DNA from: an uncultured Spirochaetales bacterium
Lineage (GTDB): Bacteria > Spirochaetota > Spirochaetia > Sphaerochaetales > Sphaerochaetaceae
Length of the DNA: 42,235 nt
NCBI GenBank assembly: GCA_945947045.1
Contig: CAMEXG010000002.1
Location: 1 to 42,235, forward strand
Direction of reading: 5' to 3'
The position numbers and the translations under genes were made by a program. Below, piece by piece: positions 40,335 to 41,418 of the stretch. The first letter of the stretch is position 1, and every line of letters begins with the position of its first letter. The notes beneath the pieces are model-generated. The model worked only from the letters and a program-made list of their open reading frames with translations, had not been told where the DNA came from and did not search any database.

Positions 40335-40367
40335 AAAAAGGAGGAATCTCATGATTCCTCTCTTTTT
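40333..40367. terminator. bidirectional terminator between the barrel protein and rubredoxin genes
   Basis: GAGGAATC and GATTCCTC form a perfect 8-bp stem with a 4-nt loop. It is flanked by a seven-A run on the left and CTTTTT on the right. It serves the plus-strand gene ending at 40334 and the minus-strand rubredoxin ending at 40370. Confidence 0.9.
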
Positions 40368-40369
40368 CC

Positions 40370-40525
40370 TTACGCTTCTTCCTGGAACATATCCTTGGAG
40401 ATACCGCAGATTGGGCAAGCCCAATCATCTGGAAGATCTTCAAATGGTGTGCCTGGAGCGATTCCATTGTCTGGATCACCAACTGCTGGATCATAGACAT
40501 AGCCACATGGGCAGACGTACTTCAT
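40370..40525 (-). CDS. rubredoxin (missed by the ORF track)
   Basis: This is a 51-residue electron carrier: [20 protein letters not shown], then [20 protein letters not shown] and GISKDMF. The PDNGI...[17 protein letters not shown] pattern is unmistakable. The iron site has Cys5, Cys7, Cys37 and Cys40. The first pair is C-x-C-G instead of the canonical C-x-x-C-G, so the first loop is one residue shorter. AGGAG lies 8 bases before the ATG. It probably serves oxygen or peroxide detoxification or another anaerobic electron transfer path. It sits downstream of the DUF134-NifX gene on the same strand. Confidence 0.93.
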
Positions 40526-40587: not shown

Positions 40588-41322
40588 TCAATGGTGGCAA
40601 TGACCTCCACAGCCTCCATGGGAACAATTATGGCTTTCTTCGTGGTGATGATGGTTGCAGTTTGCGTTGGAATTCTGTTCTAGTTTTCCTTCTAGATATG
40701 CCTTTACCGCTTCGTCTGCTTCCCCGTCGATTCCACCATATAGTTCTATGCCCATGGCGGCGACTCCACTTTGAGCTCCACCTCCGATTCCTCCACAGAT
40801 AAGGACATCGGCTCCAAGTGAATCCAAAACTCCCAATAACGCACCATGTCCCTGACCGTTTGTGTTGATGACGGTGGAAGACTTAATCGCTCCATCTTCT
40901 ACGTCGTATACTTTAAATTCCTCTGTTCTTCCAAAGTGTTGAAAGATTCTACCATTGTCATAAGTGACAGCAATTCTCATTATTCCGTCTCCTTTATCAT
41001 TGATTTCGTTATATGTTTTGCTTTCTTTATTTGATTCTTTAATAACAAAGGCACCGCCTTTAATGGTAAGGCTTCTTCCATCTACTATCAAAAGAGCTAT
41101 TTTTTCTCTTGCCCTTTGATAGATGGAAGCGATGGTTGCCCTCGATACTCCCATCTCTTTTGCAGCTTCTTCCTGGGATAGTCTGTGTTTGTCTATTAGT
41201 CTTATGACTTCGAATTCATCAGTGGATAGGACGACTTCAGAGCCAGAAGGAATTCCATCTGTGTGGAAAGATTTGTATTCAGGGATACTCTCTATTACTC
41301 TTCTTTGGATAGGTCGTGCCAT
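40588..41322 (-). CDS. DUF134 regulator fused to a NifX/NifB-type cofactor-binding domain
   Basis: This is a 244-residue protein. Residues about 1-100 are DUF134 (PF02001), a sigma-like helix-turn-helix: FEVIRLIDKHRLSQEEAAKEMGVSRATIASIYQRAREKIA. Residues about 114-215 are a dinitrogenase iron-molybdenum cofactor domain (PF02579): MRIAVTYDNGRIFQHFGRTEEFKVYDV and LGADVLICGGIGGGAQ. A Cys/His-rich tail (NCNHHHHEES, HGGCGGHCHH) ends it. An internal ATG at the second domain has its own AAAGGAG 8 bases upstream, so a separate 130-residue NifX-like protein may also be made. Two proteins of this kind are often adjacent genes. GGAG precedes the full-length start. Confidence 0.85.
   Translation of the reverse strand: MARPIQRRVIESIPEYKSFHTDGIPSGSEVVLSTDEFEVIRLIDKHRLSQEEAAKEMGVSRATIASIYQRAREKIALLIVDGRSLTIKGGAFVIKESNKESKTYNEINDKGDGIMRIAVTYDNGRIFQHFGRTEEFKVYDVEDGAIKSSTVINTNGQGHGALLGVLDSLGADVLICGGIGGGAQSGVAAMGIELYGGIDGEADEAVKAYLEGKLEQNSNANCNHHHHEESHNCSHGGCGGHCHH
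40978..40995 (-). promoter_or_regulatory. internal ribosome binding site and start codon in the DUF134-NifX gene
   Basis: On the minus strand AAAGGAG (40995-40989) stands 8 nt before an in-frame ATG (40980-40978) that begins MRIAVTYDNGR, the exact N-terminus expected of a free-standing NifX-family protein. Confidence 0.6.
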
Positions 41323-41337
41323 CTATTTCTCCATTAC

Positions 41338-41349
41338 TGACATATGTCA
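41338..41349. promoter_or_regulatory. palindrome TGACATATGTCA in the divergent DUF134-NifX / rsuA promoter region
   Basis: A perfect 12-bp palindrome lies 16 bp before the DUF134-NifX start. On the minus strand it directly follows a candidate TAGACT-17-TATATT promoter, and on the plus strand it precedes a TATAAT box (41354-41359). This is a likely operator, perhaps for the DUF134 protein itself. Confidence 0.5.
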
Positions 41350-41418
41350 ATAATATAATGGCATAATTCCATATAGTCTACAGTTGTTTTTATGTTTTGA
41401 TAAAAGGAGAATAAGAAT

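Follow-up and report, generated by a model that had tools for sequence, protein, structure and literature searches.

A DUF134–NifX-type fusion gene with a conserved internal translation start and a candidate operator at its promoter

The window, by which we mean the entire 42,235-nucleotide stretch of DNA analyzed here, contains on its minus strand a reading frame that joins a DUF134 helix-turn-helix domain to a NifX-type cluster-binding domain, and the question this locus raises is whether the frame specifies one protein or two. A sequence-only reading had pointed to the two domains in one frame, to a separate AAAGGAG and ATG for the second domain at the position of a NifX N-terminus, and to a Cys/His-rich tail. 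It suggested that one gene may supply both a cluster-sensing regulator and a free cluster-binding protein, or else that the fusion reflects the recent loss of a stop codon. The elements of the gene relevant to this question are the following.

40588..41322, minus strand: DUF134–NifX-type fusion gene, 244 residues plus stop codon in a single frame
41041..41319, minus strand: DUF134 helix-turn-helix domain, residues 2-94 (Pfam match, AlphaFold model)
40981..41040, minus strand: flexible linker, residues 95-114, bearing the internal ribosome-binding site (low pLDDT)
40681..40980, minus strand: NifX/ORP-type cluster-binding domain, residues 115-214, which together with the tail forms the predicted short product (profile and fold matches)
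40591..40680, minus strand: Cys/His-rich C-terminal tail, residues 215-244, 30 residues (sequence)
40989..40995, minus strand: internal Shine-Dalgarno (SD) element AAAGGAG, dG -8.0, kept in relatives in three codon phases
40978..40980, minus strand: internal start codon ATG, residue 115, the first of the NifX fold
41327..41333, minus strand: SD element of the full-length start, TGGAGAA (sequence)

Profile searches bear out the single-frame arrangement. Against Pfam, residues 2-94 match DUF134 (PF02001) with an E value of 3.7e-21 and 76 bits (gathering score 27), and residues 122-210 match Nitro_FeMo-Co (PF02579) with an E value of 2.6e-18 and 66.5 bits (gathering score 26.3). The N-terminal domain is a clear member of the DUF134/UPF0251 family (PF02001, COG1342), which has a sigma-70 region 4-like helix-turn-helix and whose function is unknown; the window member differs from the family at large in being fused to a cluster-binding domain and in allowing an operator to be proposed. 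It is also the only DUF134 gene in the source assembly (234 contigs totaling 2.0 Mb, completeness about 76%). The AlphaFold model of the fusion protein (mean pLDDT 88, pTM 0.55) contains two confident domains separated by a disordered linker, with pLDDT <50 at residues 98-104. Specifically, the predicted recognition helix of the DUF134 domain spans residues 61-81, and Met115 is the exact starting point of the first NifX strand.

The C-terminal domain shares the fold of the IPR003731/PF02579 family (NifX, NafY, ORP, MTH1175, TM1816 and IssA), with fold matches to structures of ORP, TM1816, PH0822, MTH1175, NafY and NifX. The earlier label of NifX-type is sound at the level of the NifX/NifB/ORP superfamily, of which this domain is a member by its profile and fold matches, but not for NifX proper (TIGR02663, 17 bits against an equivalog cut-off of 112), and 'NifX' is accordingly a loose name; no nif context was seen in the genes adjoining the fusion. 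Similarly, the MrpORP iron–sulfur carrier profile (NF041136, an Mrp ATPase plus an ORP domain) is matched at 79 bits against 450, through its C-terminal ORP part only, and the window protein lacks the P-loop ATPase domain. The tail is indeed rich in Cys and His, and these columns are nearly invariant in an alignment of 71 fusions. Within the same fold family, IssA stores Fe–S as thioferrate, has an unstructured C-terminal tail and rebuilds [4Fe-4S] ferredoxin (PMC5524996); the IssA tail is cationic and aromatic, whereas that of the window protein is Cys/His-rich.

Two further NifX-like arrangements were observed. In L283, L284, L285, L287 and L316, a NifX/ORP-type domain with Cys/His tail is followed by an apparent FKBP-type peptidyl-prolyl isomerase domain, a reading based on the annotation of one plasmid match; such a NifX–FKBP combination may act as a metallochaperone in the manner of SlyD. 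The window's genus also has a second, distant NifX-like family (L024 and L025); in L024, the end of a rubredoxin-like ORF lies a short distance upstream of it.

With respect to the number of products, the element to consider is the internal start. In the window gene AAAGGAG lies 8 nt ahead of the ATG at codon 115, at the first NifX strand and thus where it had originally been placed. Among 160 unique fusion ORFs, reduced to 111 by clustering at 80%, a start codon stands at the NifX boundary in 107 (103 ATG, 3 GTG and 1 TTG), and 8 nt is also the preferred SD-to-start spacing across fusions. Mean pairing energy with the anti-SD is -7.4 kcal/mol for these internal starts; the genes' own starts average -8.3, and the remaining in-frame ATGs -3.7. 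An energy of -4.9 or better is reached by 96%, 92% and 32%, respectively. Synonymous resampling that preserves the peptide gives a mean of only -5.6 (z = -9.2). Moreover, GGAG precedes 77 of the 107 internal starts, where synonymous recodings lead one to expect 32.5 and never exceed 47, and when the set was cut to 37 representatives at 58% identity, 2000 recodings included none as strong as the observed sequences. The SD element and ATG were also present in all five of the plasmid fusions fetched later (Treponema, Roseburia, Selenomonas, Pusillibacter and Subdoligranulum), which are independent of the sequences used to set up the test. No special RNA structure was found at the internal site (fold z-score 0.1), a result that neither supports nor hinders an internal start.

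Conservation of this kind could in principle belong to the linker peptide, a K-G-E/D...M hinge or interaction motif whose resemblance to an SD element is incidental, and K-G does precede the internal Met in most fusions. The codons, however, speak against this: the linker Gly is encoded by GGA in 71 of 77 cases, compared with about 35% in ORFs, and among the 37 representatives its column is 89% GGA while 24 other Gly columns reach at most 59%. The element also occurs in different phases (counts of 58/11/9), as AAA GGA G (KGE, KGD, KGA, KGG), AAG GAG (KEN) or AA AGG AG (KRSS, RRT), so that a shift of phase gives the same GGAG in linkers reading KEN, KRSS, RRT or GRN. Because GGAG is found in all three codon phases, it is the bases and not the amino acids that are conserved. 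Given also the disorder of the linker in the AlphaFold model, we regard a conserved peptide as extremely improbable; codon choice and the three codon phases led us to reject it.

Exceptions to the pattern are few. One Bacteroidota fusion has the internal Met without an SD element, which is as expected because this phylum rarely uses SD. Four divergent fusions from the Synergistota sample (L225, L227, L231 and L232) have no start at the usual place and carry the linker ...MxxGIIAVT; this group may make the long form only, or may start a few codons upstream.

We next consider how old the fusion is. Match tables show it in about 20 of 139 genomes sampled from the window's family; sampling around a Lachnospiraceae member gave about 60 in 299 genomes, and around a Negativicutes member about 57 in 121. 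Besides Spirochaetales, Lachnospiraceae and Negativicutes, similar fusions occur in Synergistes (Synergistota), Oscillospiraceae and others. Carriers include well-known gut and rumen anaerobes. Fused proteins of other phyla are about 42-54% identical to the window protein, and their linkers have diverged. By this comparison, the DUF134–NifX-type fusion is old and common. The recent loss of a stop codon, offered earlier as the alternative origin, is rejected because the fusion is spread over several phyla in diverged sequences.

Both domains also occur as separate genes, and comparison with such genomes had been proposed as a check on the two-product idea. In L082, L085 and L323 they are overlapping genes in different frames. 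In Peptoclostridium, the split duf134 and nifX-type genes have 4 nt in common, with two genes for ATP-binding proteins after them; on a Citrobacter conjugative plasmid the overlap is 26 nt, and the AAAGGAG of the nifX-type gene lies inside the end of duf134. Overlapping split relatives therefore carry the same SD element, and on sequence comparison the internal start of the fused gene is the counterpart of the second gene's start. The plasmid of Citrobacter farmeri (NZ_CP077292.1; L352:2501-3248) has a two-gene DUF134 and Nitro_FeMo-Co module with a Cys/His-rich tail and TGGCATATGCCA upstream; plasmid records matching P0001 number 175, mostly from Klebsiella, Citrobacter and Escherichia.

The existence of split operons suggests another account, in which duf134 and nifX have fused repeatedly and recently, the internal SD and ATG are fossils that have not yet decayed, and the full-length protein alone matters. 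A tree of the NifX domain, which is too short for a resolved phylogeny and was used only for the clustering of the fused state, requires about 19 changes between fused and single states, so several fusions or splits did occur. Nonetheless, the site is kept in cross-phylum fusions at the low identities given above, and in one fused clade (98% support) the linker has changed from KGxxxM to KRSSxM with a shift in the codon phase of the SD element and about the same distance to the ATG. Conservation of the bases, moreover, exceeds what codon usage allows. We therefore consider a fossil site improbable.

Taken together, the genes show a start codon and SD element conserved at the domain boundary under nucleotide-level selection, and there is strong comparative evidence that this internal start has been kept by selection across phyla. 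The sequence-only reading had staked its two-product idea on conservation of the internal ribosome site; the site proved conserved across phyla at the nucleotide and not the peptide level, and the idea emerges strongly supported by comparison. Very probably, then, both a full-length regulator and a free carrier are produced from one gene. In-frame internal starts that yield a second protein are familiar from the short forms of CheA and ClpB and from Cas10d/Cas11d, and the principle is shared: a ribosome site inside the gene delivers its C-terminal part as a protein of its own. The window gene differs in that the division parts a DNA-binding from a cluster-binding domain, and in having overlapping two-gene relatives.

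As for what the short form does, it might be no free carrier at all, pairing only with the full-length regulator and tuning its activity, as short in-frame forms are known to do in other proteins. We think this unlikely, though not markedly so, as many species, including most of the genus, keep a NifX-type protein without DUF134, which points to an independent role. In the window's genus, most of the sampled members have the free NifX-type protein only, its first residue at the position of Met115, and the NifX-type part is thus useful without DUF134.

In terms of regulation, the promoter of the fusion gene contains a palindrome that was absent from the sequence-only reading.

41338..41349, no strand assigned: 12-bp palindrome TGACATATGTCA, candidate DUF134 operator, conserved in relatives
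41352..41380, minus strand: promoter-like element, -35 TAGACT (41375-41380), 17-nt spacer, -10 TATATT (41352-41357) (consensus match only)

The palindrome adjoins the promoter-like element, lying between the -10-like TATATT and the start codon, and exact TGRCATATGYCA has a single copy in the source genome, at this promoter. In 86 of 110 fusions, the 130 nt upstream include a CATATG-centred palindrome, compared with a mean of 0.7 in shuffled sequence, and many of the remaining fusions have near variants such as TGACATAAGTCA. Of 25 stand-alone duf134 genes, 10 are preceded by such a palindrome, in some cases with other outer bases; of 101 stand-alone nifX genes, none is. A second copy is present in many fusions, most often 32-37 bp apart; by inspection, the TTGACA of the upstream copy can act as a -35 element, with the downstream copy just past the -10. 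The promoter of the gene thus bears a conserved, dedicated site, as expected for an autoregulator. Comparison provides strong evidence that the palindrome is kept by selection, and TGACATATGTCA is probably the DUF134 operator.

One could instead imagine that a different regulator, such as a member of the CRP/FNR family, occupies the palindrome and that DUF134 has some other function. In favor of this, one CRP site of E. coli contains TGACATATGTCA (PMC4655474), and one fusion has a Crp/Fnr gene upstream of it. This is an unlikely explanation, however, for a site limited to DUF134 genes, since a global regulator would be expected to have other intergenic targets as well. No palindrome regulon was found in other promoters: about 40 further sites were read in 43 genomes, and 38 were inside ORFs. 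One-mismatch sites in the window's own genome number 29, compared with 14 for a reversed-pattern control, about a twofold excess. The outer palindrome bases also vary with recognition-helix residues. Specifically, A versus G at operator base 3 is best explained, among 96 domain positions, by residues 62 and 66, which are separated by one turn of the recognition helix. Columns outside this helix score as well, and the covariation is suggestive and no proof because relatedness, which confounds it, was only down-weighted.

Away from DUF134 genes, just two exact palindromes are intergenic: one in L155 (G134:C103), upstream of an unidentified protein, and one in L160 (G159:C19), upstream of a DNA-polymerase-IV-like protein; they are possible extra targets.

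These observations are most consistent with a self-regulated gene of two products, in which a DUF134 switch acting on TGACATATGTCA is encoded together with a free cluster-binding protein whose loading changes DNA binding, a model that we consider probable. The fusion, the conserved internal start, the conserved promoter palindrome and the split relatives all support it by comparison. Translation from the normal start would give a DUF134 regulator with the NifX/ORP-type domain and Cys/His tail, and the internal ribosome-binding site would give a free cluster-binding protein of about 130 residues. The helix-turn-helix would occupy TGACATATGTCA at the gene's promoter and most likely repress it, and an Fe–S or metal cluster loaded onto the NifX domain and tail would alter DNA binding, so that carrier output rises when there are clusters or metal to handle. 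That the full-length protein senses clusters is suggested by its domain family and the Cys/His tail. The more ambitious form of this model, a one-gene homeostatic circuit present in several phyla, in which a cluster-controlled DUF134 autorepressor on TGACATATGTCA is combined with a conserved internal site making the carrier, has perhaps slightly less than an even chance of being correct; as the same mRNA would encode sensor and carrier, such a circuit would have one promoter and a built-in ratio.

We infer an Fe–S or metal ligand from the fold shared with IssA and because some fused genes adjoin genes for rubredoxin, Mrp/NBP35 or C_GCAxxG proteins. In Selenomonas ruminantium, an Mrp/NBP35 ATPase gene lies upstream of the fused gene, and C_GCAxxG genes adjoin some others. 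In the window, the neighbor is rubredoxin.

40370..40525, minus strand: rubredoxin gene directly downstream of the fusion, with rubredoxin likewise downstream in L032, the nearest relative (88% identity across the match)

Rubredoxin is possibly co-transcribed with the fusion gene. No conserved downstream operon partner was found among the fusions, rubredoxin occurring in only a few and neighbors not being strongly conserved.

The two domains, and internal starts as a principle, were known before. Our literature search found no study that treats the DUF134–NifX-type fusion, its internal start or an operator for DUF134; as far as this search shows, a phylum-crossing conserved internal start that parts a DNA-binding from a cluster-binding protein is new, as is an operator proposed for the uncharacterized DUF134 family. 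An old, widespread family without known function thereby gains a testable role, that of an autoregulator with a DNA site and a likely Fe–S or metal-cluster signal. The annotation 'DUF134 domain-containing protein' probably masks a second, separately translated protein that has been selected across phyla.

Two minor features flank this region. The contig end (42180-42235, plus strand) looks like the beginning of a tRNA-Asp (GTC) gene truncated by the assembly, with no ARAGORN call on the fragment, and a hairpin at 40340-40361 could terminate transcription from both sides.
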